Source: Chryseobacterium gleum
Lineage (GTDB): Bacteria > Bacteroidota > Bacteroidia > Flavobacteriales > Schleiferiaceae
Direction: 5' to 3'
Assembly: GCA_945883565.1 (NCBI GenBank)
Contig: CAMCXO010000014.1
Coordinates: 1 to 63,322 of the forward strand
Length of the DNA: 63,322 nt
The position numbers were made by a program, and so were the translations under genes. How positions within the stretch are numbered: position 1 is the first letter of the stretch; every line of letters begins with the position of its first letter. Below, one piece after another: positions 5,589-20,934 of this stretch. Below the pieces are notes generated by a model, which saw only the letters and a program-made list of their open reading frames with translations, had not been told where the DNA came from and did no database searches.

Positions 5589-7832
5589 TTACTGTTTCAC
5601 CACTTTGATACGTTGAATGCTTTCGCCCGTTTCAACTTCTACAATGTAGGTGCCGGGAGCGTAAGCAGTGAGGTCGAGCTGGCTGATGCCAGCCGTAGCG
5701 GTGGCGCTTTGAAGAATTCGGCCTTGTATGTCGCGCAATTGCAAGCGGCTGCCTTCAGAGGCTTCTATGTTGATGTAAGCGCTGCTTGGATTGGGATATA
5801 CGTTTAGGCTGTTTAACATGGCGTCTGGGGCTTCATCGGTTTTGTTGCCTCCTGCGCCCAGGTTACGGTCGCGGCGGTTAGACCAAGCCGAATTGCGGGC
5901 TCCGCTGCCTGCATCGTAACGGCTGCGTACGTTAAAGCGGTAAAGTTTTCCGGGGGTTAATCCGGTTACAGCCAAACTGGTATCGGTAATGCCGGTAACG
6001 GTGTTTACCAATACGTTGTCGGTTACATTGCGTATGCGAACCTGGTAGTTAATAACCCCTGGCATTAAGCTTCCATTGCTTCTTGGGCGGTTCCAAAGAG
6101 GCTTGAAACCATTAGGCGATTGGTTAACCGCGCTAATAAGGTTAGGGATGTAGGCGGTATCTAAACCGGCAATGGTGAAGGCACCCACAGAATCGCTTTG
6201 GCAATTGAAATCGTCGTATACGCGAATGCTGTAGTTACCGGCTGTTAATTGGTTGAACCCGGCATTGCGGCGGTTGCTAAGCAAACTGCTGCTGCTGTTT
6301 GGGTAAACGAGTTCTACATCGTAAAGCGATTTGCCGCCCGAAATATTGAATACATTAACGCGGGCGCTGTTGGCCGGAAGGGCATCGAGCTCGGTGGCCT
6401 GAAACACATTGTAGCTGTAAGTAGGGCTTTCGCATACAATGGTAAAGGTTTGGGTGCACGAAAAATTGCCGGTATTGCCTGCGCTTATGTAGTACTCGTA
6501 AGTGCCGGGCATGCGATTTTGCAACAATTTGCTGGTGGTGCTCGAAGAGGTACTTAACCAAGCGGTATCGCCCTGCAAACGGTAGCGAATAACATAACTT
6601 GAAACGCTTTGGCTGGCCCAGCTAAACTGCACCCGATAATTACCTGTGGCACTGGCACTGGTGGTAAAAGCGGGGTTGCATATGGCAATGGGCGGATTAA
6701 AAGTGGTGTTGAAAGCGGTGCCATTTACCATGGTGCCCGGAGAGAAAAGCACGGAAGTGTTGGTGCCGTGTTGTTCGAAGTTTCCGGTTAAATCGGGATT
6801 GCGGGTATAACTTTCGTTGGGGTTGTTAGACAAGATATCGGAATCGAAAGTGAGAACGGTTTTGCCTTGTGAATTCTTAATAACAATTACTTCTCCGCTG
6901 TTATTAAGATTAAGCCCAACCACACCGGTATCGGCGGTAAGCACAATAGCACCACCAAACGAACCGGTTGGATTGCCTCCACCGAATACCACCAAGGCGC
7001 CTCCCGGAGGAATAATGGTATTGGCCGGAATGGTATAGCGCAATTGACCGTAAATGGTATCGTCCCAAATTTGATAACCGCCGGCATTGTAGTTTACCGA
7101 ATCGGTATTGATGAATTCGATAAAAGAATCTTCTTCTTGTCCATAAACCCCATCGCCATTGGCGTCGCCGTCGAGGGCGTTGTTAGAAGGGTCGTACAAC
7201 ACCTCGTTTATTATTAAAGGCGTAAGAATTACAACGGGAGGTGGTGGAGAAACAAAAGTGGTATCGAAAGGCGTACCGTCTAGACGGGTGCCTGGTGAGA
7301 AATACAAGGGGGTGTTGGTGCTATGCTGTTCGAAGGCACCACTGATATCAGGGTTTCGGGTATAGCTTTCGTTGGGGTTGTCGGAAAGGGCGTCGCTGTT
7401 GAAGGTGAGAACCGTTTGACCCATGGGGTTTTTTATGGCAATTATTTCGCCGCTGTTGTTAAGGCTAAGACCAAGAGGGCTAACACTGGCCGAAAGCACC
7501 ACGGCACCGCCAAATTGACCCACCGGATTGCCACCGCCAAAAACAACTAAAGCACCACCTGGGGGCACCAAGGTATTGGCCGGAATGGTGTAACGCAAGC
7601 TTCCGCTTATGGTGTCGTCCCAAATTTGGTAACCACTCATATCGAAATCGTAAATACCGGTGTTAACGAATTCTATAAATTCATCGTTTTGTTGCGAGTA
7701 AACGCCATCGCCATTGGCGTCGCCGTCAAGGCCGTTGTTAGAGGGGTCGTACAGCACCTCATTAATAATTATTTGAGCCGAGCCTGTTAGGCAAATACCG
7801 GCTGCAAACAAAAGACTTAGAAGTTTCTTCAT
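5589..7832 (-). CDS. T9SS-secreted protein with two lamin-tail domains
   Basis: 747 residues. Signal peptide MKKLLSLLFAAGICLTGSAQ. Two lamin-tail (LTD) domains start at about residues 21 and 206. Both open with INEVLYDPSNN and an Asp-rich DGDANGDGVY stretch and close with NPNESYTRNPD...FSPG. Fibronectin-III-like segments follow (about 385-470 and 560-660). The last ~75 residues (LNVYPNPSS... ending RIKVVKQ) are a type A T9SS sorting domain, so the protein should be exported by T9SS and attached to the surface or released. LTDs are thought to bind ligands at the surface or in nucleic-acid-associated proteins; the ligand here is unknown. It is divergent from the MocR operon, and the same LTD block recurs in the gene at 18403. 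Confidence 0.9.
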   Translation of the reverse strand: MKKLLSLLFAAGICLTGSAQIIINEVLYDPSNNGLDGDANGDGVYSQQNDEFIEFVNTGIYDFDMSGYQIWDDTISGSLRYTIPANTLVPPGGALVVFGGGNPVGQFGGAVVLSASVSPLGLSLNNSGEIIAIKNPMGQTVLTFNSDALSDNPNESYTRNPDISGAFEQHSTNTPLYFSPGTRLDGTPFDTTFVSPPPPVVILTPLIINEVLYDPSNNALDGDANGDGVYGQEEDSFIEFINTDSVNYNAGGYQIWDDTIYGQLRYTIPANTIIPPGGALVVFGGGNPTGSFGGAIVLTADTGVVGLNLNNSGEVIVIKNSQGKTVLTFDSDILSNNPNESYTRNPDLTGNFEQHGTNTSVLFSPGTMVNGTAFNTTFNPPIAICNPAFTTSASATGNYRVQFSWASQSVSSYVIRYRLQGDTAWLSTSSSTTSKLLQNRMPGTYEYYISAGNTGNFSCTQTFTIVCESPTYSYNVFQATELDALPANSARVNVFNISGGKSLYDVELVYPNSSSSLLSNRRNAGFNQLTAGNYSIRVYDDFNCQSDSVGAFTIAGLDTAYIPNLISAVNQSPNGFKPLWNRPRSNGSLMPGVINYQVRIRNVTDNVLVNTVTGITDTSLAVTGLTPGKLYRFNVRSRYDAGSGARNSAWSNRRDRNLGAGGNKTDEAPDAMLNSLNVYPNPSSAYINIEASEGSRLQLRDIQGRILQSATATAGISQLDLTAYAPGTYIVEVETGESIQRIKVVKQ

Positions 7833-7870
7833 GCTGGCGGGGTTTTTAGATTAGGTTGTATTGAAGCAAC

Positions 7871-7918
7871 TAAGCAAGCCATTTAAAACACGGTCTGTGC
7901 ATACCAATTCATACCAAA
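7871..7918. promoter_or_regulatory. divergent control region with paired CATACCAAW boxes
   Basis: CATACCAAT at 7900-7908 and CATACCAAA at 7910-7918 are direct repeats one turn apart, between the lamin-tail gene and the MocR gene. The 11-mer GCATACCAATT (7899-7909) recurs exactly at 20799-20809 upstream of the convergent seven-gene operon. A further shared block, TTTAAAACAC (7882-7891), recurs at 20690-20699. MocR proteins are known to bind direct repeats in their own divergent promoters, so these are candidate operators. Confidence 0.55.
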
Positions 7919-7990
7919 TGGTCAATCCAATTGAGCTGTGGTGTTTGAAGCCCAAGCTAAGTGCTTAGTTTCGTTTTGGAAGAACACCCT

Positions 7991-9478
7991 ATGCTTACCC
8001 CACGTATAAAACAAGCTTTTGAAACAGCCTTAAGGCTTGAAAAAAACGCCCAAACTAAGCGGTATCAACTACTTTATGAGGTAATTAAGGATTGTATTAA
8101 AGTAAAGGAATTGCCGGAAGGCGAGCGCTTGCCCAGTTCACGAAAGCTGGCGTTGGATTTAAAGTTGTCGCGCAGTACGGTGGTGAAAAGTTACGAAATG
8201 TTGTTGGCCGAGGGGTTCCTAGAGTCCAAGGTGGGCTCTGGCAATACCATAATAAACCCTTTAGAGGCTTCGGTACGGAAAACAAAGCCCAATTTATCGC
8301 CCGAAAGCTATCCGGAGTTGTCGAAAACCGGTCAGTCGTTTTTGTCGAATATTCATCTAATAAATGGCACCGAAGACAAGAGTATTGCGTTTAGACCCGG
8401 ACTTCCGCCTTTAGATATTTTCCCGGTGAACCCCTGGAAGAACTTAACCAATTTGTATTGGCGGCAAATACGGTCGTCGGAGTTGAGTTATGCGGCCTCA
8501 TCGGGCATGCAGGTTTTGAAGCGCAACATTGCGGCCTATTTAAATATAAGCCGAGGCATACGCTGCAGCAGCGAGCAGGTGTTTATTGTTTCGGGCTCGT
8601 TGCAATCGCTTTTTTTGTTGGGAAGCACTTTGCTTAACCATGGCGATGGGGTGGTGTTGGAGAATCCCACGTTTCCGAATGTGCACAGCATTTTTAAAAG
8701 TTTGGGCGCTCGCCTATTCCCTGTTGAATTAGATGATCAAGGTTTAAGCAGAAAGGGCTTGCCCAACGAAATGGTAAAACTTCTACACCTTACGCCCTCT
8801 TGCCATTACCCACTTGGAAAGGTTATGTCGGTTGAACGCCGCTTGGAATTGCTAAACTGGGCGGGCGAAAAGCGGGCCTTGATTATAGAAAACGATTACG
8901 AGCACGAAATAAATGGGTTTGGTAAAAAAGCATTGCCTGCCATTTTCAGCCTGGATGTTCAAGACAGAACCGTGTATTTGGGAACCTTTAACCGCTTGCT
9001 TCACCCTGCTGTGCGCATTGGCTATATGGTAGTGCCCGAGGCCATGATTGCCCCAATAGAGGCGTTCCAAAAACACTCGCACCGGTTTGTGTCGCCTTCC
9101 TTGCAATTGGTATTTAACCAGTTTATTGAAAAAAAGCTGTTGTTTAAGCATATAAAGGATGTAAGGGAAGTGGCACAGGAGCGCTATGGCATTTTTACAA
9201 ACGAGTTGAGTAAGCTTTTTGGCAAATCGCTCAGCATTATGCCCAGCGAAGCCTTTGGACTGCATGTTTTGGCGAAGCTAAATGCCTCGGGAAGCGATAA
9301 CGACTGGGTAGAATGTTTGCGCGAAAAGCAAATTACGGCCCATGCCTACAGCAAGTGTTTTGTAGGCGATGTGAAGCAAAACGGACTCATATTCGGCTAC
9401 TCGAGTGTAAGACCGCCCTTAATGAAAACCAAACTTCAACAAATGAAAAAGGCCCTGGAATCGGGAGGATATTTATGA
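7991..9478 (+). CDS. MocR-type regulator (GntR HTH + aminotransferase-like domain)
   Basis: About 495 residues from the ATG at 7991; a GTG at 7961 would add 10. The N-terminal winged helix is GntR-like (LPSSRKLALDLKLSRSTVVK), and the C-terminal domain is a fold-type-I aminotransferase with expected landmarks such as TPSCHYPLGKVMSVERR and ENDYEHEI. Where the PLP Schiff-base lysine is expected (family GTFSKxLxPxxRLGY) the sequence is GTFNRLLHPAVRIGY, so Lys is replaced by Arg335. The protein may therefore sense a ligand without covalent PLP. The gene overlaps the next by 4 nt and probably regulates its own operon and neighbouring operons. Confidence 0.9.
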   Translation: MLTPRIKQAFETALRLEKNAQTKRYQLLYEVIKDCIKVKELPEGERLPSSRKLALDLKLSRSTVVKSYEMLLAEGFLESKVGSGNTIINPLEASVRKTKPNLSPESYPELSKTGQSFLSNIHLINGTEDKSIAFRPGLPPLDIFPVNPWKNLTNLYWRQIRSSELSYAASSGMQVLKRNIAAYLNISRGIRCSSEQVFIVSGSLQSLFLLGSTLLNHGDGVVLENPTFPNVHSIFKSLGARLFPVELDDQGLSRKGLPNEMVKLLHLTPSCHYPLGKVMSVERRLELLNWAGEKRALIIENDYEHEINGFGKKALPAIFSLDVQDRTVYLGTFNRLLHPAVRIGYMVVPEAMIAPIEAFQKHSHRFVSPSLQLVFNQFIEKKLLFKHIKDVREVAQERYGIFTNELSKLFGKSLSIMPSEAFGLHVLAKLNASGSDNDWVECLREKQITAHAYSKCFVGDVKQNGLIFGYSSVRPPLMKTKLQQMKKALESGGYL

Positions 9479-10392
9479 GAACCCTGATGTGGTACCTAAT
9501 GGCCATTTTGGGCCTCACTTCTTGTTATAAAAACACAACGCCTGTGGCAGAAACCGGCGATTTAAAGGTTTATGGCACGGGCCAATATGCGTTTGACCTT
9601 CCTCAGGGATTTGCATCTACCGCCATGCAGGTGTTTTACCATATTCCAGAAGGGGCCGATGGGAATAGTCCGGTTTTAATGGTTTTTCACGGCAATTTGC
9701 GCGATGCAAGAGAAAGCCGAAATGAAATGATTAACATGGCCAATCAAAAAAAGTGTGTGCTGTTGGTGCCCGAATTCTCCGAAATGGCCTTTCCGGGCAA
9801 CAATGAGTACCACTTAGGAGGGGTGTTTGACGATGGAGAAAACCCAACTGCCGGCGAATTGCGTTCCTCAAACCGGTGGACCTTTTCGTTGGTTAAACCT
9901 CTGTTTGAAGAAGCCAAAACCCGCTTTGGGTATGTAGCACTTAAGTTCGATGCCTTTGGGCATTCGGCCGGTGCGCAGTTTTTGCACCGCTTATTGTATT
10001 TTGAAAGCCAATTACCCCTTAACAGGGCTTTTGCCAATGCCTCTGGCTGGTATACATTGCCTTCTGTGGCCATTGATTACCCTTACGGTTTGAGGCAAAC
10101 GGGTTTAAATGAAGCTCAAACCCTTGAACGCGTATTCGGACACTCGGTACACATAACCGTTGGAGCCTTGGACAACGACCCCAATGCCCCGGCATTGAGG
10201 CGAAATGCCGAAGCTGATGTTCAAGGTACTAACCGACGAGACAGGGCTCAGTATTTTTATCAATACAGTGCTGGCCAAGCCAATGCTCTTGGGTTGCCCT
10301 TTAGTAGTTGGACGTTTTCGGTGATTCCGGGCATAGGACACGATTTTGTACCAGCCGCCCAATATGCCATAAATACTTTATATCCCCAATGA
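9475..10392 (+). CDS. alpha/beta-hydrolase lipoprotein
   Basis: 305 residues from ATG 9475, which overlaps the MocR stop as ATGA; a longer upstream frame exists but this start gives a proper lipoprotein signal (lipobox LTSC, Cys17). The hydrolase core has a nucleophile elbow, GHSAG, and a C-terminal GIGHDF likely carrying the catalytic His. The layout resembles secreted esterases and PHB-depolymerase-like enzymes. It probably sits on the periplasmic or outer face of a membrane and cleaves an ester or amide before uptake by the transporter encoded next. Exact substrate not predictable. Confidence 0.8.
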   Translation: MRTLMWYLMAILGLTSCYKNTTPVAETGDLKVYGTGQYAFDLPQGFASTAMQVFYHIPEGADGNSPVLMVFHGNLRDARESRNEMINMANQKKCVLLVPEFSEMAFPGNNEYHLGGVFDDGENPTAGELRSSNRWTFSLVKPLFEEAKTRFGYVALKFDAFGHSAGAQFLHRLLYFESQLPLNRAFANASGWYTLPSVAIDYPYGLRQTGLNEAQTLERVFGHSVHITVGALDNDPNAPALRRNAEADVQGTNRRDRAQYFYQYSAGQANALGLPFSSWTFSVIPGIGHDFVPAAQYAINTLYPQ

Positions 10393-11819
10393 ATGGACGT
10401 TTGAAACAAGCCTTGTCGCTGTGGGCAGGCCCAGTGCTTTTTGCGCTTATTTTTATGGGTTCGAAGAGCTTTATTCCCGATTACGAAGCCCGGGCCATGT
10501 TGGCCATTACCCTTTGGATGGCTGTTTGGTGGATTAGCGAATGTGTGCCCATTTCGGCCACGGCCCTCCTGCCTTTGGTGCTTATGCCTTTAAGCGGAGT
10601 ATTGCCCTTGGGCGAATTGGCAGCGGCTTATGGCCACAAATACATCTTTTTGTTTTTAGGCGGGTTTTTGCTGGCGTTGGCCATCGAAAAGTGGCGTTTG
10701 CACTGGCGAATGGCGCTACACCTCATTTTGTTGATGGGCAATTCACCCCGTAAGGTGCTAATGGGTTTTATGCTTACTACTGCCATTTTAAGCATGTGGA
10801 TTTCTAATACAGCCACAGCCATCATGATGTTGCCCATGGCGGTAGCCGTTGGAAAAAGGTATGAACAAAGCCAGGGAGGCGAAGGAAATATGGCGGGGTT
10901 TCAAAAAGCGTTAATGCTGGGCATTGCTTACAGCGCATCTATAGGCGGAATGGCCACCTTAATAGGTTCGCCCCCAAATCTTATTCTGGCCGGAATGCTC
11001 GAAAAAACCTACGGCATTGAAATGGGCTTTTTAACTTGGTTGGGCTTCGGTTTGCCGGTGGCGGTTTTGCTTATGGCCATTTTGATGTTTCTTTTGGTAA
11101 AAACAATGGGCAAGGTACCCGAAACAACAGCCAGCGATGAACTGAAATTGGAACTTCAAAAACTAGGACCTATAGACCCCAACGAATGGCGAGTTATAGG
11201 GGTTTTTGGGTTAACGGCATTGGCTTGGATGGTTCAATCGTTTGCCATAAAACCTTGGTTGCCCGGTATAGACGATACTGTTATCGCCATGATTTCAGGC
11301 ATTGCCCTGTTTGTTATTCCGGCTTCTAACCAAAGCGGCCGTCTATTGGAGTGGCGCGAAGCGGAGGGCCTTCCCTGGGGTGTATTGTTGCTTTTTGGTG
11401 GTGGCATTGCTTTGGCCATGGGTTTTGAGAAAACCCAAGTTGCGGCCAATTGGGCTCAACAACTGCAAAGTTTGAATATGCCACATCCTTTTTTGGTGAT
11501 GTTGCTGGTTATTGCGGCCATTAATTTTTTAACCGAAATCACCTCCAACTTAGCCACTACTGCGGTGATGCTGCCGGTATTGGCGCCATTTGCAAAAGCA
11601 TTGGGAATACCTGAAGTATCGCTTTTACTGGCAGCTACTTTTTCTGCCTCATGTGCTTTTATGTTGCCGGTTGGTACGCCGCCCAATGCCATTGTATTTG
11701 CCTCTGGCAAACTGAATATGCGCGATATGGTAAAAACCGGTATTTGGATGAACCTGCTTTCTATTGCGGTTCTAACCATTTTGGCCTGGTTTGTTTTTGG
11801 AAAGATTCCTTTGATCTAG
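10389..11819 (+). CDS. DASS (SLC13) family sodium/dicarboxylate symporter
   Basis: 476 residues from ATG 10389, which overlaps the previous stop by 4 nt. It is a multi-spanning inner-membrane protein. Both characteristic SNT-type motifs are present: SNTATAIMMLP in the first half and TSNLATTAVMLPVL in the second. GSPPNLI and GTPPNAIVFA mark the paired re-entrant hairpins. Members import di- and tricarboxylates or sulfate with sodium. The gene context (isoaspartyl dipeptidase, DcuC) favours C4-dicarboxylates or aspartate-like substrates. Its stop lies only 5 nt from the stop of the convergent porin gene, with no terminator between. Confidence 0.92.
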   Translation: MNGRLKQALSLWAGPVLFALIFMGSKSFIPDYEARAMLAITLWMAVWWISECVPISATALLPLVLMPLSGVLPLGELAAAYGHKYIFLFLGGFLLALAIEKWRLHWRMALHLILLMGNSPRKVLMGFMLTTAILSMWISNTATAIMMLPMAVAVGKRYEQSQGGEGNMAGFQKALMLGIAYSASIGGMATLIGSPPNLILAGMLEKTYGIEMGFLTWLGFGLPVAVLLMAILMFLLVKTMGKVPETTASDELKLELQKLGPIDPNEWRVIGVFGLTALAWMVQSFAIKPWLPGIDDTVIAMISGIALFVIPASNQSGRLLEWREAEGLPWGVLLLFGGGIALAMGFEKTQVAANWAQQLQSLNMPHPFLVMLLVIAAINFLTEITSNLATTAVMLPVLAPFAKALGIPEVSLLLAATFSASCAFMLPVGTPPNAIVFASGKLNMRDMVKTGIWMNLLSIAVLTILAWFVFGKIPLI

Positions 11820-11824
11820 AACAA

Positions 11825-13024
11825 CTAGAAAATAATCTGACACAATAAACCCATTCGCAAAGTGGCTACATTATTGTTTTGAATTTGACCGGCACTAAGC
11901 TGAAATTTAAGCCCTTGTTTGTTGAAGTAGTGGGTAAATCCAAGGTCGAATGCGCTGAAATCGTTTACCAAAGAGGTGGTTTGTTCAAACTCGCGTGCAA
12001 TTTGACTATAACGCACATCCAACCCCCAACGGCCACCATAGGTATAAGATAGGGTCGAATTAAAGCCACTGCCAAGGTGGTAGTATCCACTAATTTGTTC
12101 GGGCAAAAGTGGCTGCAAGGCAAAGGCATCGGTGTATAAATTATCTAAACCCGAAGCCGTTCCCAAACCGTATTCGCCCAAAAAGGCCCAACCTTTGTAC
12201 TTAAACATAACATCGCCAAACAATTTTCGGTAATTGGCGTACTGCAGAACACCGCTTTGATTATACAATTCTACGCCTCCATGGCCTTCGCCAACTTCTT
12301 GACTGGCGCCGTTGTTTAAACTGCCTGCAACGCCTAAAACCAGCTTTGGCTTTTCTTCAAATTCCAAATCGGCCAATTGCTCATCGTTATAGGGTTTAAA
12401 ATCGCCCAAAGGAAAGATGTCTAAACGGGCAGCGTACTTTAATCCACCTAAATCGTTGTCGCGGGCATCTACTCCAAACGAATTGCGACCATCGCCCGAG
12501 GCCACCATGGCATAAAGCGACCAACGGCTTTTGCCGATGTATTTTTTTAAGTGAAGGTTTAAGCCGAATTCTCGTCCTGTTCTGCTGTAAGTTTCGCTCA
12601 GGGCGCTTCGCGAAGCAAAAGACAAATGGTCTTCAAGAAAGAGCATTTCGCGGTTATTGGCCGGCGACAGCATTTGTCCGGCTTTAACTTCTACACCCTC
12701 CCAAGGTTTATAGGCCAGCCAAGCATCGAGCAGGGCGTCGGGATCTGAAAAATCGGCCAGAAACATAAAGCTCAGTTTTTGTGGTTTCGATTTTCCTTTT
12801 ATACGGAAGAAACTCCTTCGGCTTCTAAACCAGCTTTGTGCATCGGCCCCATCGGGTTTTTCTACATAAATTTCGGGTTGAAGACTGCCACCAATATTAA
12901 AAGCGTAGTCGCCATTGTTTAATTCGAAGCCAAAACCCTGACCTACTTCATATGTGGCTTGGTTTTGTGCGTGGCCATTGGATAGGAGGAATCCCAACAC
13001 CAGAATAAGCCCTGTTTTTTTCAT
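11825..13024 (-). CDS. OprP/OprO-like porin
   Basis: 399 residues with signal peptide (MKKTGLILVLGFLLSNGHAQ). The rest consists of alternating beta strands ending in Phe (LLCQIIF), as expected for an outer-membrane barrel. Segments such as FRSRRSFFRIKGK, LADFSD and VKAGQMLSPANNREM match the phosphate-selective porin O/P family. Its start overlaps the M14 gene stop by 4 nt, and it is the last gene of the operon. A homologous porin gene (14562) lies on the other side of the peptidase gene, so the operon carries two related channels. The substrate is inferred to be anionic peptides or dicarboxylates rather than phosphate. Confidence 0.85.
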   Translation of the reverse strand: MKKTGLILVLGFLLSNGHAQNQATYEVGQGFGFELNNGDYAFNIGGSLQPEIYVEKPDGADAQSWFRSRRSFFRIKGKSKPQKLSFMFLADFSDPDALLDAWLAYKPWEGVEVKAGQMLSPANNREMLFLEDHLSFASRSALSETYSRTGREFGLNLHLKKYIGKSRWSLYAMVASGDGRNSFGVDARDNDLGGLKYAARLDIFPLGDFKPYNDEQLADLEFEEKPKLVLGVAGSLNNGASQEVGEGHGGVELYNQSGVLQYANYRKLFGDVMFKYKGWAFLGEYGLGTASGLDNLYTDAFALQPLLPEQISGYYHLGSGFNSTLSYTYGGRWGLDVRYSQIAREFEQTTSLVNDFSAFDLGFTHYFNKQGLKFQLSAGQIQNNNVATLRMGLLCQIIF

Positions 13025-14565
13025 CGGAAATCAGCGTTTGTTGTTTGTTGAATCCGGTAAATGGGGAGTTCCATACCGGTTTTGAGGGCAATTTGCCCTA
13101 GTTTAATAAAGCCACTGCCAGCCTCGGGTTCGAGCAATTCGGCTACCAATCCGGAGCGCAATTGCTTCATGCTAACCCAATAATCGCCGGCTTCAAATAC
13201 CATTTCTATGGGCTCCAGTTCAACCTTTACGTTTTGCCGTTTTACACCTTCCCAATCGAAGGGTTCGGTGCTTATATTTTCCACCACAAAACGTTCGGCT
13301 TTACAGTTAAGAGCCGATTTAATGGGTTGAAGTTCTACCCCCAATATTTGCATTTTTTCGATGAGCGCCTGCTGCGAAGCTTTGATAACATAAGCCATTG
13401 GGCAAGATCGCTTGAGTTTTGGGGATGAAAAAAAAGCGTCGCGCAAGGGCACTAAAACCCGGGTTGTATCGGCTTTGGCAATGTCGATAACCTTAATATA
13501 AGTATCTATGGTTTTGCGTTCGCTGCTTACCACCACTTCTTGACGCACTTGTTGCTGGGCATTTTTTAAAGTGCTCCGCAGCAAGCGCTTTTGTTGAACC
13601 GCTTGTTGAATATAACTTAAAGCCACTGCATAACTTGAATGTACCCGGCGCTTAAATCCGTTTCGACCCAAACCTACCCCTCGAATTTCGACCAATGTGC
13701 TTACACAATTGTTTAGTGCATGATGGCTGGCACTTGAGCGCGGGTGCACCGACCCTTGGTTAATAACCAAAGCCCCTGCTTCTTTGTCGGACGTAAAATA
13801 GTCGTGGTGGGTGTACCCCAAAGTGTCGAGGCTTTTTCGGGCCTGGTTTACAAAAACATCGCGGGTAAAATACCGAAGGTTTTCGGGAACGTTTAAGTTG
13901 CCTGAAAACAAAAAACACACATCGTAAAAGCCGGCCAGACCTTGCTCGCCCATGCGCAAATAATCGCGTCTATAGGGTCGGTATTCGTGCATATCTAGGG
14001 CCACTTCAGGGGCGAAATCGGTAAAGGCTTTTTTCCAATATCGGGTTTCGGGTGCCAGCAATTTGGTTTGATCGCGGTTTAAATCGAGGCCATTGGCGGC
14101 ATGTCGTTCTTGTGCTTCAAAGCCATCAACATTGGCCATGGGCATAAAAGCGATATAGGCGTTTTCTAATAAGTGGCGATAGCGCGGGAGGTTTAGCATT
14201 TGAATAAGATGCAGGATACTTTCGGTACCTGCGGGTTCATCACCATGCAAGCCGCCCATTATCCAAATGCGAACCGAAGCGGTATCGGGATTGCCGAGAT
14301 AGGCTACCACCATTGGTTTCCCCTTTTGGCTGTGACCGACCGAATCGATTTTCCAAACTAATCCCTTTGGAGCATCAAAGAAGTTTAAAAAAGACATCAT
14401 TTCGGCATGGGTGGTAAATCCCTTTTCTTTTTGAAAAGCCGGGGTATTAAAATCAATTTGAGGATCGGCATAAAACCGTTTGCTAACCGCAGCCGGTTCC
14501 GGATTCATCAAGCTGTTGCAAGCAAGCAAGGTGGCCAAAGCCAAAAAGGCAATTAAACGTTTCAA
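13021..14565 (-). CDS. M14 family zinc carboxypeptidase lipoprotein
   Basis: 514 residues with lipobox LLAC near residue 16, so probably a periplasmic or outer-membrane lipoprotein. The M14 active site is intact: zinc ligands in GGLHGDEPAG (HxxE) and LDMHEY, the substrate-binding NRD in GLDLNRDQ, and the catalytic Glu in TLVEIRG. The C-terminal ~180 residues are an accessory beta domain. It should remove C-terminal residues from peptides. It sits between two porin genes with 4-nt overlaps on both sides, which suggests a peptide-trimming step coupled to outer-membrane uptake. Confidence 0.9.
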   Translation of the reverse strand: MKRLIAFLALATLLACNSLMNPEPAAVSKRFYADPQIDFNTPAFQKEKGFTTHAEMMSFLNFFDAPKGLVWKIDSVGHSQKGKPMVVAYLGNPDTASVRIWIMGGLHGDEPAGTESILHLIQMLNLPRYRHLLENAYIAFMPMANVDGFEAQERHAANGLDLNRDQTKLLAPETRYWKKAFTDFAPEVALDMHEYRPYRRDYLRMGEQGLAGFYDVCFLFSGNLNVPENLRYFTRDVFVNQARKSLDTLGYTHHDYFTSDKEAGALVINQGSVHPRSSASHHALNNCVSTLVEIRGVGLGRNGFKRRVHSSYAVALSYIQQAVQQKRLLRSTLKNAQQQVRQEVVVSSERKTIDTYIKVIDIAKADTTRVLVPLRDAFFSSPKLKRSCPMAYVIKASQQALIEKMQILGVELQPIKSALNCKAERFVVENISTEPFDWEGVKRQNVKVELEPIEMVFEAGDYWVSMKQLRSGLVAELLEPEAGSGFIKLGQIALKTGMELPIYRIQQTTNADFR

Positions 14566-15866
14566 AATGCGTAGGTCATCATTAAAGTGGCCAGTGATTC
14601 TCGGCCGTTAAAGGCATTGCCGGCTACATCTCTCGAATTGGGCCCAACTTCTATCCAGGTGTAATCGGCCTGAATGCGGAAGCTGTAGTTGCGATCGAAA
14701 TATTTGCCAATTCCTAAAGTGTAGTAGCGAGGCCGGTTATAAAACAGGGTGTTGTTTAAAAAGGAGTCGAATTCTGGATTAATCTCGGTAATTCGGGCGT
14801 CTACGCTCCATCTTGAAGGCAATACATAACCGGCTTGAACATTCCAGCCGCTGCCAACCATCATACGGCCTTTTACATAGCGTTCTACATTTTGACTGCC
14901 ATCTACTTCAAACTCGGTGCTGGTGCTGCCATCTACCCGAACGCGCTGATAAATGCTCGAGGGCACACTAGCCGTGGCCTTCACCCATTCTGCATACAGG
15001 CTGAAACCTCTAAACTTGAAGAGCATGTCGAACCCGAATTTGGTGTAGTCCGGAAGGGCATATTCGCCGTTTTGATCGAGATATAGGATAGTTCCACTTT
15101 CGCGGCCACGGCGGCTGCTTACCCCTTGATTGAGGCTATAGTATCCACCCATCACCAGTTTTGGCGTGCGTTCGCCTACCAAATCGGCTTGCCTGAATTG
15201 ACCGAAAGCACTAAACAAGCCGAAGGGCAAATAGTCTATACGTCCGCCATATTTAAATCCACCAATATTGGCGGGTTTTAAACCGGCCCCATCCCCATCT
15301 GTAAAAGCCAAAGATGGCCTCAGATAGTGGCTTCCGTTAAGTCTAAAATTGCCATCTATGAAAATGCCCACTTCGCGAATGGTGGCGAAGGCAGAGGTTA
15401 ATCGGCTTCGTTCTGTAAATTGTAGCGTTTGAGAGCCCATTCGGAGCTCGCGGTTATCGGTAGGGGTGGTAAGTTGCCCAATGGTGATTTTAATTTTGTC
15501 ATTGGGTTTATAAGCAATAAAGGCATCTAAAAGGTATTGATTGGTTTGTTCGGCGTCTTCTGAGTTTCCGGCTAAATCGAGGTTTAAGCGGTATTCGAAT
15601 CGGCCTTGAAGCACATCGCCCGACAGCCGCAATCGCAAGCGGCGCATTCTAAAACGGTTATAACCATAGTTCGCGCTATCGGTATCATAAAACCGACTTT
15701 GCACATAAGGTTGAATATAACCCCTCACATTGAAACTGGAAATGCTGTTTCCGTAACTTATGCCTTCTCCTTGCGTATAGGCAGATAGTTCGTTGTTTTG
15801 GCCTAAGAGTGGGGTCCAAACCACACAAGTAATAAGGCTTAAAACCAATAGGATATTTGCTTTCAT
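14562..15866 (-). CDS. OprP/OprO-like porin
   Basis: 434 residues, signal peptide ending near LLGQ, beta-barrel pattern and terminal aromatic residue (MMTYAF). Motifs such as RFRMRRLRLRLSGDVL, NLDLAGN and ITIGQLTTPTDNREL match the second porin of the operon, but the two are clearly diverged, so the pair is not a recent duplicate. It overlaps its neighbours by 4 nt on each side. It probably admits small acidic solutes or peptides across the outer membrane. Confidence 0.85.
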   Translation of the reverse strand: MKANILLVLSLITCVVWTPLLGQNNELSAYTQGEGISYGNSISSFNVRGYIQPYVQSRFYDTDSANYGYNRFRMRRLRLRLSGDVLQGRFEYRLNLDLAGNSEDAEQTNQYLLDAFIAYKPNDKIKITIGQLTTPTDNRELRMGSQTLQFTERSRLTSAFATIREVGIFIDGNFRLNGSHYLRPSLAFTDGDGAGLKPANIGGFKYGGRIDYLPFGLFSAFGQFRQADLVGERTPKLVMGGYYSLNQGVSSRRGRESGTILYLDQNGEYALPDYTKFGFDMLFKFRGFSLYAEWVKATASVPSSIYQRVRVDGSTSTEFEVDGSQNVERYVKGRMMVGSGWNVQAGYVLPSRWSVDARITEINPEFDSFLNNTLFYNRPRYYTLGIGKYFDRNYSFRIQADYTWIEVGPNSRDVAGNAFNGRESLATLMMTYAF

Positions 15867-17002
15867 AGGCCGTTGTACAGGCTGTTAGCGAAGAGATGGT
15901 TCAGCATAATTTGGCCATGGGCCAATACCATTTCTATTTTGAGGTCTTCGTTTAAAACCAAGAAGTCGGCATCGGCACCTACCGCCAATCGGCCTTTTTG
16001 TGTTAGTCCGAGGTTATGGGCCGGATTGCTGGTAACAGTTTGTAAAGCCATTTCAAGAGGCAAACCCCCTCTTTGGTACAATTCCACAAACTGTTCGTAA
16101 TTAGCCGTTATAGGGGCTGGACGCCAACCTATCACTTCCTTTTTCTCGTTTAATCTGTCAAGCCCGGCATAACCATCGGTAGAGAAGGTCATTTTGTTCA
16201 TCTCAACCCCTTGATTGAGGGCGTAAATCACCATCTCCCAAGGTTCTGTATATTTAGATGCGCCAGTGGTAATGTCTATCATACCACCCAATTTGGCAAA
16301 AGCAATGGCTTGTTCGAACAAGGCCTGATATCGACCTACATGGGTGGGCGAAATGTTTTCAATAGGAAATTGATGCTCTTCAACCAATCGAAAAAGTTGG
16401 TCCATTCCACTTCTTAAATTGCCTAAGTGAAGGTGTAAAATGCCCTTTTTATTGGCCAGTTTTCCGCCAACGCGTACGTCGCGCAAAAGTCGAAGCAAAT
16501 CAAGGTCGGTAGGATAAGATGAGCGCACATCTGAAATAGCAATTTTGCAGCCCAGAACTTTATCAATAAACACCATATCGCTCATCACGCTTTCGGTGAT
16601 GTAGTTTGGGTCGAGGCCATAATACCCCGTGAACATATAAGCCGAAATACCAAGTTGGTCTAAGGCTTTTGTTCGCGAATACAAGGTTTTTATGCTTCGG
16701 CCCGAGCCATCGGTACCCAAGAGCCCCACCACCGTGGTTGAGCCGGTAGCCACTAAATCTTCGAGCGGTATTTCCGGATTCAAAGAGGCGAATCCGGCTT
16801 TTCCGCCGGCTCCAATAAGATGAATGTGCTGGTCAATGAAACCCGGACAAAGTTTTAGGCCTTGAAGGTCGAGTACCGTCCAACCTTTTGGGGGCTCACT
16901 GTTCACAGCCTGAATTGATAGGATTTTCCCCGCTGCCGTCCACACATCGCGCAACCCTAAAGGCTCAGGCGCATATACATCGGCGTTTTTTAATATTAGC
17001 AT
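15863..17002 (-). CDS. iadA: isoaspartyl dipeptidase (beta-aspartyl peptidase)
   Basis: 379 residues, close in length to E. coli IadA and alignable from memory over most of it. Metal site HIH in IDQHIHLIGAGG; GLLGTDG loop; the bridging carboxylated-Lys region KIAISDVRSS (E. coli KCAISDHRSA); zinc ligands in HLHLGN and PTHVGR; catalytic Asp in STDGYAG. The enzyme cleaves beta-linked Asp-X dipeptides from damaged proteins or from polymers such as cyanophycin. Cytoplasmic. It lies directly behind a DcuC transporter gene and before porin and carboxypeptidase genes, so here it probably serves catabolism rather than only repair. Confidence 0.93.
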   Translation of the reverse strand: MLILKNADVYAPEPLGLRDVWTAAGKILSIQAVNSEPPKGWTVLDLQGLKLCPGFIDQHIHLIGAGGKAGFASLNPEIPLEDLVATGSTTVVGLLGTDGSGRSIKTLYSRTKALDQLGISAYMFTGYYGLDPNYITESVMSDMVFIDKVLGCKIAISDVRSSYPTDLDLLRLLRDVRVGGKLANKKGILHLHLGNLRSGMDQLFRLVEEHQFPIENISPTHVGRYQALFEQAIAFAKLGGMIDITTGASKYTEPWEMVIYALNQGVEMNKMTFSTDGYAGLDRLNEKKEVIGWRPAPITANYEQFVELYQRGGLPLEMALQTVTSNPAHNLGLTQKGRLAVGADADFLVLNEDLKIEMVLAHGQIMLNHLFANSLYNGL

Positions 17003-17038
17003 AAGCTGGTTTTTAAGGCCTACCGAGGCCAGTTGGGC

Positions 17039-18397
17039 TTAATTAAAATGATGAAGCAGATACATGGCCAACAAGGCTATGCTCATAGGAAGAAGGTTTC
17101 GTTTGGCCAAATCGAAGGCGTTTACTTTGGCCAAATCGGCTACGGCCAGTAAGACGCCTGATACCGGAGAAGCGGTGCGGCCAATAGAAGCTGAAAAATT
17201 CATAGGCAAAATGAGCTTAACTGGGGCTAACGCAAATTGCTTAGCGATTCCGGGTACCAAAGGACCAAAGGCGAAAAAGGCGGCATTGCCGCTACCCATT
17301 AATATAGAAGCGAAAAAGATGAGAAGCACCAACACCACCCCTATACCCAAGGCCCCAAATCCCAATTGCTGCGATACGCCAACCAACGACTCCAAAAAGC
17401 CCAGCGATATTAGGCCCTGTGCAAAAATGTCGGCAGCCACTATGAGGGTAACCACGCTTTTAAACATAGAAGCCATGCCTCCAAAAAACACCCCGAAAGC
17501 CTGTAGCAATTTTTTACTGTCTCTTATTCGAACGCCTTCTACCAACAAAGCCACAAAAAAGCTAATAAACATAGCGGTGGTGGTATCTAACACTATGGGC
17601 TCGGGAAAAAAGCTGAACAAGTCTGAAAACACCACCAAAAGAACAAGAGGCAATATGGGTAAAATGGCGTAATACGCAGGTGCAACGTTTCTGGACGAAA
17701 CATTTTCTTTAGGTTCCAAAGCCACAGCACCTTGTTTTTTGTCGGCTTTTGTGTTTACAATCCAATATACCAAGGCCGTTAGAAGACTTATGGGCAAAAG
17801 AATGGGGAGCTGATGCTCCACAAAATAGGTCATGGCATCTATACCGGCATTTTTAGCCGCACTAACCGCCACTGCCGAGGCAGGGCCCACGCCAAAGGCG
17901 GTACACGATGTTACCACCGCTGCGGCCGACAAACGGCTTATGCCAAGATTGACCAAAACGGGAAAAACAGAAGCCATTAACAAAAGCGACAATCCGGCTG
18001 CGGAAGGAATACAAACAAACAGCATTTGGCCAATGGGAATAAAAATAGCAGCTGCCAATTGGGGCTTGGCTTTAAATGCCACTAAAGGTTTCATAGCCAA
18101 ATGAACCAAAGCGCCCGAAGCCCCAATATGTTCCATATAGGCCACAAAGCCACCGATGGCCATAATCATGAGGCCAACGCCTTCTAAAGTGCCCGAAAAC
18201 GACTGAGTGAGATAGGCAAACCAGTTAAAGGGGCCAAAACCAGTGCTTCTCTTTAAAGGTACTTCGCCTATACCGGCCACCAAAGCCAAAATGAGCATTA
18301 ACAGCCCCCCCATCAACAAAACCCCGTGAGGCGAAAAGCCTTTAAGGAGAAAGCGTGCCACCAATACAATGACCACCAAACTAATAGCCAGTCCCAT
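17039..18397 (-). CDS. DcuC family C4-dicarboxylate transporter
   Basis: 452 residues, about 12 hydrophobic segments. The N-terminus matches the DcuC pattern (RFLLKGFSPHGVLLMGGLL; GGFVAYMEHIGA), and GSGNAAFFAF and ASIGRTASPVSGV match its second half. E. coli DcuC carries succinate, fumarate and aspartate-type dicarboxylates. Its place just before iadA suggests handling of aspartate, an isoAsp dipeptide or the resulting dicarboxylate. Gap to the next gene is 36 nt, and to the preceding lipoprotein gene 5 nt, so it is in the operon. Confidence 0.88.
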   Translation of the reverse strand: MGLAISLVVIVLVARFLLKGFSPHGVLLMGGLLMLILALVAGIGEVPLKRSTGFGPFNWFAYLTQSFSGTLEGVGLMIMAIGGFVAYMEHIGASGALVHLAMKPLVAFKAKPQLAAAIFIPIGQMLFVCIPSAAGLSLLLMASVFPVLVNLGISRLSAAAVVTSCTAFGVGPASAVAVSAAKNAGIDAMTYFVEHQLPILLPISLLTALVYWIVNTKADKKQGAVALEPKENVSSRNVAPAYYAILPILPLVLLVVFSDLFSFFPEPIVLDTTTAMFISFFVALLVEGVRIRDSKKLLQAFGVFFGGMASMFKSVVTLIVAADIFAQGLISLGFLESLVGVSQQLGFGALGIGVVLVLLIFFASILMGSGNAAFFAFGPLVPGIAKQFALAPVKLILPMNFSASIGRTASPVSGVLLAVADLAKVNAFDLAKRNLLPMSIALLAMYLLHHFN

Positions 18398-18402
18398 ATG
18401 AC

Positions 18403-19362
18403 TTAAAAAGGCGATAAATCTCGACGAGCTCCGGGAGAGAACAAATACGGACCGTTGTCGCTGTGTTGCTCAAAATCGCCGGTTAAATCGGGATTACGGG
18501 TATAGCTCTCATTCGGATTGTCGGACAATGGTGCGATGTCAAATTGAATTAAAATGCTGTCGTTGGGTGTGGTGAAGTAAAACACATCGCCGGCGTTATT
18601 GAGGTTTAAATCTCCGCTTGTAGACGTTTGAACCAAGGCCCCGGCAAAGTTGCCTGTAGGGCTTCCTCCGCCAAATAAAACCAAAGCCCTTCCTGAAGCC
18701 AGCGATGTTCCGGCTGGAAATACATGGTTAGGTGTTTTGGCATCCCAACTCTCTTGGTCGTATACTTTATAGCCATCGAGGTTAATGGTTTGTGCCGAAA
18801 TGTTTACCAATTCAACAAATTCGTCTTCGCTTTGAGCGTACTGCCCGTCGGCATTGGCATCTCCGTCGAGTCCGTTGTTGGAAGGATCGTAGCAAATTTC
18901 ATTTAACACCATTCCAAAACTGCTGGGCTGGCTGTCATCGTCTTCCAGCTTCAAAGTCACACTCGATGGAGAACCTATCAAAGCCCCATTAGTTGTTTGA
19001 ATGCTTACGTTTACGGTTTCTTCGCCCTCCACTTCGCTGTCTTGGAAACTGTAAATATTGAAATTGGCCTGAGTAGTGCCAGCGGGAAGTCGAACCTGGG
19101 TGGTGGTACTTCCGTAATCGACCCCGTACACCGCGCTGCCCGAGAAGCCCAAATTAACCACCACTTCTACATCGGCAGATTCTGAAAGGCTAATGCTAAT
19201 TTGAGCCGTATCGTTTTGCTCCGAAATGGCCAATCGGCTGGTGCTTATGCTAACGCGTGCACCGCTGGCCGGGCCATCAACGTCTTCGGTTTTACAGGCA
19301 ACTAAAGCCATGATGCCTAAAAAACAAACGGCCGTTTTCATATGTAAGGGATCTTTTATCAT
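18403..19362 (-). CDS. lipoprotein with Calx-beta-like and lamin-tail domains
   Basis: Up to 319 residues. ATG 19362 overlaps the preceding stop by 4 nt as elsewhere in this operon; Met8 (19341) would give a cleaner signal peptide. Lipobox LVAC follows. A Calx-beta-like domain (about 35-140, ending LKLEDDD) precedes one lamin-tail domain (about 150-319) that begins NEICYDPSNNGLDGDAN and ends NPNESYTRNPD...FSPGARRDLSPF. That domain is nearly the same as the two in the 5589 gene. Likely surface-exposed; the ligand is unknown. Its position ahead of transporter and peptidase genes suggests substrate capture, which is inference. Confidence 0.83.
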   Translation of the reverse strand: MIKDPLHMKTAVCFLGIMALVACKTEDVDGPASGARVSISTSRLAISEQNDTAQISISLSESADVEVVVNLGFSGSAVYGVDYGSTTTQVRLPAGTTQANFNIYSFQDSEVEGEETVNVSIQTTNGALIGSPSSVTLKLEDDDSQPSSFGMVLNEICYDPSNNGLDGDANADGQYAQSEDEFVELVNISAQTINLDGYKVYDQESWDAKTPNHVFPAGTSLASGRALVLFGGGSPTGNFAGALVQTSTSGDLNLNNAGDVFYFTTPNDSILIQFDIAPLSDNPNESYTRNPDLTGDFEQHSDNGPYLFSPGARRDLSPF

Positions 19363-20654
19363 TCTGTTTGGCGTACTATGCGCAGGGCCTTATGGCTATT
19401 TTTTGTGGTAATTTCCAACACATACAGTCCGGGGGGAACGGGTTTTAAATCCAATTCGAAAGCACCGCTCATGCGCACCTCTACAGGCAATCCACCCATA
19501 GTGGTTAAACGAAGTTGGGCATTGGCCGGAAGGTTTTTCAAGAACAAGCGGCCTGTGCTAGGATTGGGATATGCCTCTAACTGTTTTAAGGCATGGTCGT
19601 TTAGTCCTATTTGGTTTGAAATAGTCAGGCTTACCGAATCTGTTAAATTCGACCCATCAGTAGTACTGCCACGCACCCAAACCACTCCGTTATTGCGGGC
19701 TGTAACTAAACCCAGAGCGCTAATGCCTGCCAAGGTGGTGTCGTTTACACTCCAATTTACCCCTTGCGCAGCATTGCTGGGCGAAATGGTGGCCAGCATT
19801 TGCAAAGTGCCTCCATCTGAACTTATGCCAGTAGCACCCCCTTGAGTTTGAACGCTTATAGACGCAGCCAAAGGGGTAGCAAAGTCCCAATTGTTGCGTA
19901 CTAAGAGGCCGTCAAAAATGACCTTTTGCTCTTCGCTGTACTGACGTAAAGCTATTCCTTGCAGCGCCACCGCATCACCGGCAGTTCCGGGTAAAGGCCC
20001 TAAGGTTGCTGTAACCGGTTCTTGACTTATGTTGTCTCCATCGGCGAACACAAATAAGCTTACCAAATCGTTATCGGCGCCGGGAACAAACGCATATTTT
20101 ACCACCACCAAATAAGTCTCTCCTGTATCTAAATCGCTGGTTACATCGGTGCCAACAGCAGTGGGAACTGTAGCCGAATTAAAGGTTAACCCCAGTCTGA
20201 ATTTGGCTGAGGTGCTGCCGCTGGTTATATAAGTACGCGCTCTAAAAGAGGTGCTTATGCTCGTGTAATCGGGATTGGTTACATTGCTGTAGGTAGCGAA
20301 GTGAAAAAAGAATCCAGAGCCAAGGGTTGAAATTACCCCATTGGGTTTCAACAAAAAAGCGGCGTATACTTTGCCAGTGTCGACTGAGCTGGAAAATGGT
20401 TTGTTTTCATCGCTCCCTGTATTGTTAATGAGGGCACTGAGACCTACACCACCCGCTAAATAAGGTGTTTGACTCAAACTCAAACCTAAATTATGCACCT
20501 TAATGGGATTGGTAGTACCGTTGCTGTGTGGCGTCCAGCCATGGTTTCTTATTTCGCTGCCTGAAGTGTAGTCGAAATCTTCTTGTAACAGCAGGTTTTG
20601 GCCATTGGCAAATAAGAAGCCGAAAGCGGCCAACAGAGTAAAAAAGTGTTTCAT
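19359..20654 (-). CDS. T9SS-secreted protein with Ig-like domain
   Basis: About 431 residues from ATG 20654; a start 27 nt upstream would put a polar extension before the signal peptide MKHFFTLLAAFGFLFANGQ, so the shorter form is preferred. The N-terminal ~250 residues (LLQEDFDYTSGSEIRNHGW...) look like a lectin- or laminin-G-like beta domain. A bacterial Ig-like segment follows (about 265-345, NWSVNDTTLAGISALG). The end (LEAYPNPSTGRLFL... to RIVRQTE) is a T9SS type A sorting domain. First gene of the seven-gene operon running to 11825. Its promoter region shares boxes with the MocR control region. Confidence 0.83.
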   Translation of the reverse strand: MKHFFTLLAAFGFLFANGQNLLLQEDFDYTSGSEIRNHGWTPHSNGTTNPIKVHNLGLSLSQTPYLAGGVGLSALINNTGSDENKPFSSSVDTGKVYAAFLLKPNGVISTLGSGFFFHFATYSNVTNPDYTSISTSFRARTYITSGSTSAKFRLGLTFNSATVPTAVGTDVTSDLDTGETYLVVVKYAFVPGADNDLVSLFVFADGDNISQEPVTATLGPLPGTAGDAVALQGIALRQYSEEQKVIFDGLLVRNNWDFATPLAASISVQTQGGATGISSDGGTLQMLATISPSNAAQGVNWSVNDTTLAGISALGLVTARNNGVVWVRGSTTDGSNLTDSVSLTISNQIGLNDHALKQLEAYPNPSTGRLFLKNLPANAQLRLTTMGGLPVEVRMSGAFELDLKPVPPGLYVLEITTKNSHKALRIVRQTE

Positions 20655-20673: not shown

Positions 20674-20808
20674 TTTAGCAAGCCAGCCTTTTAAAACACC
20701 CTGATAAGCCCAATTCGACTAAAGGTATTGTGAAGCTATGGCCCAACGAAGCAAGACCAATTGCCCCGCAAATCCCCATGCCAATGGGTTTAAATTAAGC
20801 ATACCAAT
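20674..20808 (-). promoter_or_regulatory. operon promoter region with MocR-like boxes
   Basis: CATGCCAAT (20777-20785) and CATACCAAT (20800-20808) lie 120-155 bp upstream of the seven-gene operon, and GCATACCAATT is an exact 11-bp match to the MocR intergenic region. Nearer the gene, TAGCAAGCC...TTTAAAACAC...CCAATTC (20676-20715) parallels 7872-7910. No perfect TAnnTTTG box was found. The rest of the gap to 20934 shows no gene. Confidence 0.5.
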
Positions 20809-20934
20809 TACGGCAAAAAACTACGTTCAAAACAGAGAAAAAGCAAAACCCCAAACCTTAGAAGCGTTTAGGCTGGACAACGGGGATTTTTGAATTGGAA
20901 TGAAAACTCAGGCGATTTATCTTAAGATTAAAAG

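Follow-up and report, generated by a model that had tools for sequence, protein, structure and literature searches.

A contig of a Chryseobacterium gleum assembly (GCA_945883565.1, contig CAMCXO010000014.1; 63,322 nucleotides, all analysed and hereafter called the window) carries eleven genes at positions 5589 to 20654, among them genes for an enzyme like isoaspartyl dipeptidase (IadA), two porins, an M14 carboxypeptidase, dicarboxylate carriers and a MocR-type regulator. On balance, we favour the view that this block is a MocR-controlled Bacteroidota utilisation locus for a small, anionic, beta-aspartyl-like amide that probably has no free alpha-amino group, and that it works without TonB or Sus parts. 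That the gene set forms one system is almost certain, and a role in the uptake and catabolism of an anionic, amide-linked compound is likely; that the substrate differs from ordinary isoaspartyl (isoAsp) dipeptides is a view to which we lean with less assurance. A preliminary description of the same DNA, made from the sequence alone, had listed these genes, and every one of them was confirmed where it had been placed. The window is an entire contig of a 2.86-Mb genome.

Conservation of the block in relatives

The block is built from two convergent operons. On the plus strand, the genes for MocR, a predicted hydrolase (Hyd) and a DASS-family symporter span 7991-11819; on the minus strand, T9Big, CalxLTD, DcuC, IadA, PorA, M14 and PorB run from 20654 to 11825, and the 3' ends of the two operons are 5 bases apart. 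With the starts of MocR, DASS and T9Big set at 7991, 10389 and 20654, six of the eight intra-operon junctions are 4-base overlaps. The eleventh gene, LTD2T9, lies on the minus strand, divergent from MocR.

IadA loci were gathered from a set with a single genome for each species (the best 80 of 106, of which L021-L079 were used) and from further relatives, and we compared their open reading frames with sixteen window proteins. The analysis left out 21 weak amidohydrolase relatives (L080-L100) and dropped duplicates (L032 and the same-contig repeats L101, L103, L104 and L130), which gave 51 cluster-type and 26 ordinary-type loci besides the window; close relatives, such as L028/L029, L050/L078 and L061/L102, are still among them. 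Although many of the 51 cluster loci end at contig ends, DcuC is found in 50, PorA in 48, M14 in 47, PorB in 43, CalxLTD in 40, Hyd in 35, MocR in 27, LTD2T9 in 19, and T9Big and DASS in 13 each. In 31 cluster loci the sequence extends 5.5 kb or more to either side of IadA; DcuC, PorA, M14 and PorB are each present in all 31, followed by Hyd (27), CalxLTD (24), MocR (21), LTD2T9 (15), DASS (11) and T9Big (8), and relatives of LTD2T9 are found beside MocR or CalxLTD. With equal flanks, 19 ordinary IadA loci have DcuC in 8 and DASS in 1, and none has any other block gene. The edges of the block are sharp: the window genes TPR, MTase, GT1, GT2 and OEP match in 0 of the 77 loci. Because the genes are conserved as a unit within such edges, from Flavobacteriales to Dysgonomonas and Bacteroides, we consider the block to be beyond chance. 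Gene order in relatives, which the preliminary description had proposed as a check and whose loss would have counted against it, is kept.

Genome-wide searches gave the same picture. IadA occurs in 19 of 198 relatives, and PorA orthologs (E 1e-77 or better) in 23 of the 198, covering all 19. M14 orthologs (E 1e-74 or better) occur in 22 relatives, the best match in the next genome being 7e-19, and M14 is also present as contig-end fragments in G004 and G055, so that all 19 IadA genomes have it, two as fragments only. M14 without IadA was seen in G056, G078 and G084, where the loci end at contig ends, and in G142 and G190, which hold a true variant made of a T9SS-tailed protein (for the type IX secretion system), PorA-M14-PorB, a DUF4886 protein and DASS; these two genomes lack IadA altogether, and the contigs concerned lack DcuC. 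Across 394 Bacteroidota sampled phylum-wide, cluster-type IadA was found in 4 genomes (58-100% identity), and an M14 ortholog (E 1e-119 or better; next 5e-36) in exactly those 4. Six more of the 394 have IadA at 38-42% identity (one match partial), and none of the block was found in the stretches around these, the shortest named being just 5.2 kb long.

Two observations concern the variant and its surroundings. A lamin-tail homology was considered for both surface genes in G142 and then dropped, as Pfam assigns a T9SS tail to one of them and no domain to the second. Beside the IadA-less variant, L116:8448-13586 encodes a 1713-residue protein, truncated at the contig end, in which several QNGDDAIELF...FGDIN-DG-G--WEY repeats can be seen by eye; Pfam gave no lamin-tail match for the two small proteins next to it.

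A putative MocR-type operator shared by the two operons

The regulator gene (7991-9478, plus strand) encodes a GntR winged helix-turn-helix followed by an aminotransferase-like domain, as confirmed by profile searches. Upstream of MocR in most relatives we found a direct repeat of AATTGGTAT, 23 bp start to start, of the form AATTGGTAT-N14-AATTGGTATG-like. It is present with at most three mismatches over 18 positions in 20 of 27 usable MocR upstream regions, and 19 of the 20 have the period of 23. Direct repeats are often bound by MocR regulators, as noted in passages of PMC5320631.

A matrix trained on 17 such sites from relatives, excluding the window, was then scanned over the 63-kb window. 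The top two matches fall at the two promoters of the block, both on the minus strand: one upstream of the main operon (20774-20812, score 22.0) and one between LTD2T9 and MocR (7897-7935, score 12.7), the latter with the 23-bp period; each is an operator-like direct repeat. The third match, elsewhere, scores 7.9. Across 60 random 63-kb sequences the best score averages 9.1 and never exceeds 19.6, and the 12.7 site is thus remarkable by its place only. The window's own genome has five matches with at most three mismatches and the reversed-pattern control has one; the three with two mismatches are the two block promoters and one intragenic site on C27. We considered this last site, and a pair on C11 of G016, as marks of extra regulon members, and take them as chance because they lie inside long reading frames.

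The repeat also precedes Hyd, which was outside the training set: in loci with MocR and M14, 13 of 20 independent Hyd rows have a site scoring at least 13, including L022, L026, L034, L042 and L079, though Hyd there lies more than 10 kb from MocR. The operator was not found in the other seven rows (L021, L039, L055, L107, L109 and the second hydrolases of L030 and L040). A search of the two window promoters for short direct repeats did not return it, because the copies there differ too much, and promoter and terminator scans gave site numbers no higher than in shuffled sequence. Collectively, these data suggest that the two operons are linked by a common operator of the MocR type and are apparently co-regulated. 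Together with the conserved gene order, this supports the single pathway that had been proposed at the outset.

The regulator itself departs from GabR at a telling place. In the alignment, ...GTFNRLLHP... of MocR stands against ...GTFSKSLLP... of GabR, so that the SK of GabR is NR here, and the GabR lysine is the one we take to bind pyridoxal phosphate (PLP). All 26 readable distinct MocR copies (25 relatives and the window, two gapped rows aside) have arginine at this site. Loss of the lysine argues against an amino compound being sensed through PLP, and the window protein may belong to a PLP-independent branch of the family.

Active site of the IadA-like enzyme and the nature of the substrate

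The IadA-like M38 amidohydrolase (15863-17002, minus strand) scores 342.7 bits against the isoAsp_dipep model TIGR01975 (cut-off 331.25), and its binuclear metal site (H68, H70, K162, H201, H230 and D285 in E. coli IadA numbering) is intact. In the window enzyme Glu77 is replaced by Lys68 and Ser289 by Gly280; the Lys68 codon lies at 16799-16801 (minus strand), and HMMER aligns this residue with a Glu of 1onw and with a Gln of 2aqo. The Glu77 position holds Lys in 45, Gln in 3 and Arg in 1 of 49 cluster enzymes, whereas all 25 others have Glu; the Ser289 position is Gly in 48 and Cys in 1 of the 49, against Ser in 21 and Cys in 4 of the 25. Gly74Ala, Gly288Ala, Arg83Met and Leu117Tyr accompany the Glu77 swap in most cluster rows, and Tyr137 is Phe in 15. 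In a tree built without L073 and the fragments L113, L114 and L138, the cluster enzymes form one side of a single branch with support 100. (In L114, from G150, IadA, PorA and M14 are each broken into at least two frames, by decay or sequencing errors.)

According to passages of PMC5517026, in the Colwellia enzyme with beta-Asp-Lys Glu80 and Thr109 contact N11, and Cys297, at the Ser289 site, contacts O13; with beta-Asp-Leu, the E80Q mutant is inactive and Y140F has less than 10% activity. On our reading N11 is the alpha-amino nitrogen of the substrate, and a lysine at the Glu77 site should repel its ammonium group. As an amino-contacting Glu is replaced by Lys, Gln or Arg in the enzyme, and as MocR has no PLP lysine, the alpha-amino group of the substrate is most likely absent or blocked.

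Several observations weigh against the explanation we favour. No readable cluster row has lost Thr106, Arg169 or Arg233, and the pocket might therefore still accommodate an ordinary isoAsp dipeptide in a different way. Because the cluster enzymes are one clade, the Glu77 swap is, judged from the tree, one event kept since and not many. On the regulatory side, the 12.7 site is no stronger than a stray site of 12.9, the highest in any ordinary IadA locus (L075); in L021, the closest relative, the repeat is degenerate (5 of 18 positions mismatched) and no site scores 9 or more; and no such site was found in L045-L047, L050-L054 or L078, which have no MocR in the available stretch. At the outer membrane, acidic residues (12) outnumber Arg (3) and Lys (4) among the 64 conserved positions of PorB. 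Finally, the occurrence of M14 and both porins without IadA in G142 and G190 suggests that the outer half of the locus can work with other inner parts.

The strongest alternative is that the locus scavenges ordinary isoAsp dipeptides from damaged protein, its IadA being active despite Lys at position 77. It draws on the TIGR01975 score above cut-off, on the kept metal ligands and arginines, and on DcuC, which also stands beside ordinary IadA in 12 of 26 loci; in Sutterella, moreover, isoaspartyl dipeptidase is described as highly expressed, with Asp converted to fumarate (passages of PMC11204068). We nevertheless regard it as unlikely: Glu77 is replaced in 49 of 49 cluster enzymes, its Gln mutant in Colwellia is inactive on beta-Asp-Leu (PMC5517026, in the passages cited), and a regulator without the PLP lysine suits an amino-acid effector poorly. 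The damaged-protein origin raised by the preliminary description is weakened by the change in the active site.

General turnover of peptides or envelope proteins, a housekeeping trimming with no specific substrate, is less probable still. M14 carboxypeptidases can be broad, and L141 has distant homologs of the M14-hydrolase pair in the company of a POT-like transporter and a peptidase of the M20 type (see below). The patchy presence of the cluster (19 of 198 relatives; 4 of 394 Bacteroidota), its own regulator and operator and the altered IadA pocket point instead to a dedicated accessory function.

The preliminary description had also named a cyanophycin-like polymer as a possible source and had suggested a search for cyanophycinase elsewhere. 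We sought cyanophycin genes in 28 genomes, of which 24 carry the cluster or its variant and 4 carry neither. Cyanophycinase (TIGR02069) passes its cut-off in 4 of the 28, all within the 24 (G000, G002, G004 and G016, three of which share one genus), cyanophycin synthetase (TIGR02068) passes in the same four, and weaker cyanophycinase matches, below cut-off, appear in 12 more. In G002, G004 and G016 the genes form an iaaA - cyanophycinase - cphA block outside the cluster. The window's own genome (G000) has synthetase and cyanophycinase at G000:C1:18733-21321 and G000:C2:115845-116624, not on the window's contig. The search thus did find the gene in this genome, yet over cut-off in few others and never in the cluster. 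M14 was also considered as a cyanophycin dipeptide hydrolase, an M14/AstE-type enzyme according to passages of PMC10206079, and this now seems improbable: its best solved-structure matches are carboxypeptidases, and no such hydrolase is among the 60 or 50 matches listed. Thus, although the own genome has both genes, below-cut-off family matches are scattered through 12 more and IadA can end a cyanophycin pathway (PMC10206079, in part), a locus for cyanophycin or beta-Asp-Arg degradation is very improbable, since the cyanophycin genes occur in only 4 of the 24 cluster genomes, at a separate locus where in three cases iaaA could take the beta-Asp-Arg step.

Proposed pathway and comparison with known systems

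We return to the reading we favour, an anionic beta-aspartyl-like amide as substrate, and follow it from the surface inwards. LTD2T9 (5589-7832, minus strand) is a secreted protein with lamin-tail domains (95.1 bits in two stretches) that contain a DGDANGDGVY loop, an fn3 domain (39.1 bits) and a T9SS C-terminal tail (Por_Secre_tail, 39.2 bits), all assigned by Pfam. T9Big (19359-20654, minus strand), first in the main operon, passes the T9SS tail model TIGR04183 (28.3 bits against 23) and Big_2 (25.1 against 22.8), while the Pfam tail model gives 22.0, below its cut-off of 27. CalxLTD (18403-19362, minus strand) is a predicted lipoprotein with Calx-beta and lamin-tail domains. Its Cys, invariant in 26 aligned copies, is followed by KTEDV in the window and mostly by a (K/E)TEDV-like acidic stretch, similar but not identical to the lipoprotein export signals described in passages of PMC5080379. 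Eight loci (L046, L047, L050-L054 and L078) have a different family in its place before DcuC, and the L046 member contains leucine-rich repeats. The lamin-tail proteins, T9SS-exported or anchored as surface lipoprotein, would keep the substrate, or a calcium-bound polymer of it, on the outside of the cell.

Trimming would fall to Hyd and M14. Hyd (9475-10392, plus strand), predicted to be a lipoprotein with a lipobox-like Cys, has no Pfam match and only a weak one to an extracellular short-chain-length polyhydroxyalkanoate (scl-PHA) depolymerase model (25.9 bits against a cut-off of 150). It is likely a serine hydrolase, since the GxSxG motif, Asp and His are kept: C17, G162-S164-G166, D233 and H289 are conserved in at least 92% of 39 rows. 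M14 (13021-14565, minus strand) has a signal peptide, and H107, E110, R154, N163, R164, H193 and E293 are invariant in 30 copies; from carboxypeptidase A, we presume these to be an HxxE...H zinc site, an Asn-Arg carboxylate site and the catalytic Glu. Its predicted model (pLDDT 93) matches carboxypeptidase B over residues 40-326 (Z 28.6, rmsd 2.6, 250 aligned residues), and a beta-rich C-terminal part extends to residue 514. A crude lipobox pattern is matched by 16 of 38 Hyd copies and by 22 of 40 copies of CalxLTD; the window M14 also has a lipobox, which we do not take as a general feature of M14 because the pattern fits only 4 of its 48 copies. More distant M14 homologs (about 25%) occur alongside a Hyd homolog (29%) in L141 and L143, the former also with an M20-type peptidase and Na/H-antiporter-family and POT-like transporters, the latter with an AbgT transporter; these are perhaps related peptide or aminobenzoyl-glutamate-type loci.

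The trimmed pieces would pass through two OprP-like porins, one of them arginine-rich. PorA (14562-15866, minus strand) scores 48.1 bits against Porin_O_P (cut-off 20.9), and its predicted model (pLDDT 84) is closest to OprP and OprO (Z 29.4 to 29.1; for OprP, rmsd 3.4, 338 aligned residues and 18% identity), the next fold group, other porins, reaching Z 23.9 or less. An alignment of 31 copies has 18 Arg and 5 Lys positions that are unchanged or almost unchanged. PorB (11825-13024, minus strand) falls just under the Porin_O_P cut-off at 20.6 bits and is matched by a PorA query at 1e-33 (31%). We had considered two arginine-rich porins and dropped the idea, as the conserved positions of PorB form no arginine array. 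Sequence searches against solved structures at E 0.01 gave no match for either PorA or DcuC.

Across the inner membrane, DcuC would carry the pieces, together with DASS or, in some relatives, an SDF symporter. DcuC (17039-18397, minus strand) scores 351 bits against NF037994 (cut-off 100). DASS (10389-11819, plus strand; listed as an open reading frame from 10308, with its ATG at 10389) scores 302.2 bits against TIGR00785 (cut-off 199), and its closest solved structures are NaDC3, NaCT, other SLC13 members and VcINDY. In 7 loci (6 without L032), none with DASS in the available stretch, PorB is followed after 13-61 bases by the gene for an unrelated sodium:dicarboxylate symporter of the SDF type (the L022 copy at 315 bits by Pfam, the rest grouped by BLAST). 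This supports dicarboxylate transport as part of the locus, as had been proposed. Of the 12 ordinary IadA loci in which DcuC adjoins IadA, 11 are from Sutterellaceae (the pairs are L059, L060, L062 and L064-L072, from Sutterellaceae and one Desulfovibrionaceae metagenome-assembled genome), a pairing that hints at a role of DcuC carriers in the import of isoaspartyl dipeptides or in dicarboxylate exchange. In the cytosol, the IadA-like amidohydrolase would cleave the beta-amide to a C4 dicarboxylate or aspartate and a second part, the candidate substrates being N-blocked isoAsp, beta-malyl, succinyl or similar compounds.

A more specific version is tentative: a TonB-independent locus for an anionic conjugate or polymer with an amino-free beta-aspartyl-like amide (beta-malyl, succinyl or N-acyl-beta-aspartyl linkages, perhaps with esters opened by the lipoprotein hydrolase), served by an IadA clade of new specificity, a MocR that senses without the PLP lysine, lamin-tail binders and a porin pair. 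Elsewhere in the window, a Fic-domain protein (771-1811) and a TPR protein (2666-4450) adjoin the block, and the window yielded no tRNA and no Rfam RNA above its gathering score.

If these views hold, dozens of Bacteroidota would be mis-annotated as users of isoaspartyl dipeptides while eating something else, and the locus would be a unit similar to a polysaccharide utilisation locus (PUL) that serves acidic matter of peptide type, whose use as a source of carbon and nitrogen is difficult to follow from genomes. Bacterial lamin-tail domains would gain a testable role in binding at the surface. Given the residue swap and the missing lysine of MocR, two purified proteins would be enough for a direct test of the substrate.

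Known systems offer several points of comparison. Like IadA (M38; E. coli 1onw, Colwellia 5xgw), the amidohydrolase passes TIGR01975 and keeps the metal ligands, including the carbamylated-type lysine, and Arg169 and Arg233; unlike it, the cluster clade has Lys, Gln or Arg for Glu77 and Gly, once Cys, for Ser289. The Pseudomonas porins OprP and OprO (OprP with its arginine ladder) are the best structural match of PorA, with Z about 5 above other porins, but PorA shares 18% identity, and this locus has two porins in an operon with a peptidase, the conserved positions of PorB not being arginine-rich. MocR has the winged helix-turn-helix, aminotransferase fold and direct-repeat operator of the MocR/GabR family (PMC5320631, in part), but with Arg for the Schiff-base lysine in all readable copies. 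Cyanophycin clusters with IadA or IaaA, as described in passages of Sharon and Schmeing (2023; PMC10206079), likewise place an IadA-type enzyme in a catabolic cluster, whereas the present locus has neither CphA nor cyanophycinase. As in PUL/Sus systems, surface proteins, exported enzymes, uptake, inner-membrane transport and a dedicated regulator share one locus; in contrast to them, no SusC/SusD or TonB receptor was matched by Pfam among the eleven block proteins, and porins and peptide-type enzymes stand in their place. No description of such a locus appeared among the matches listed in the open full-text literature, which leaves most subscription papers outside. Utilisation loci as such are already known; what sets this one apart is its combination of parts, its clade of IadA and a MocR that lacks the lysine.

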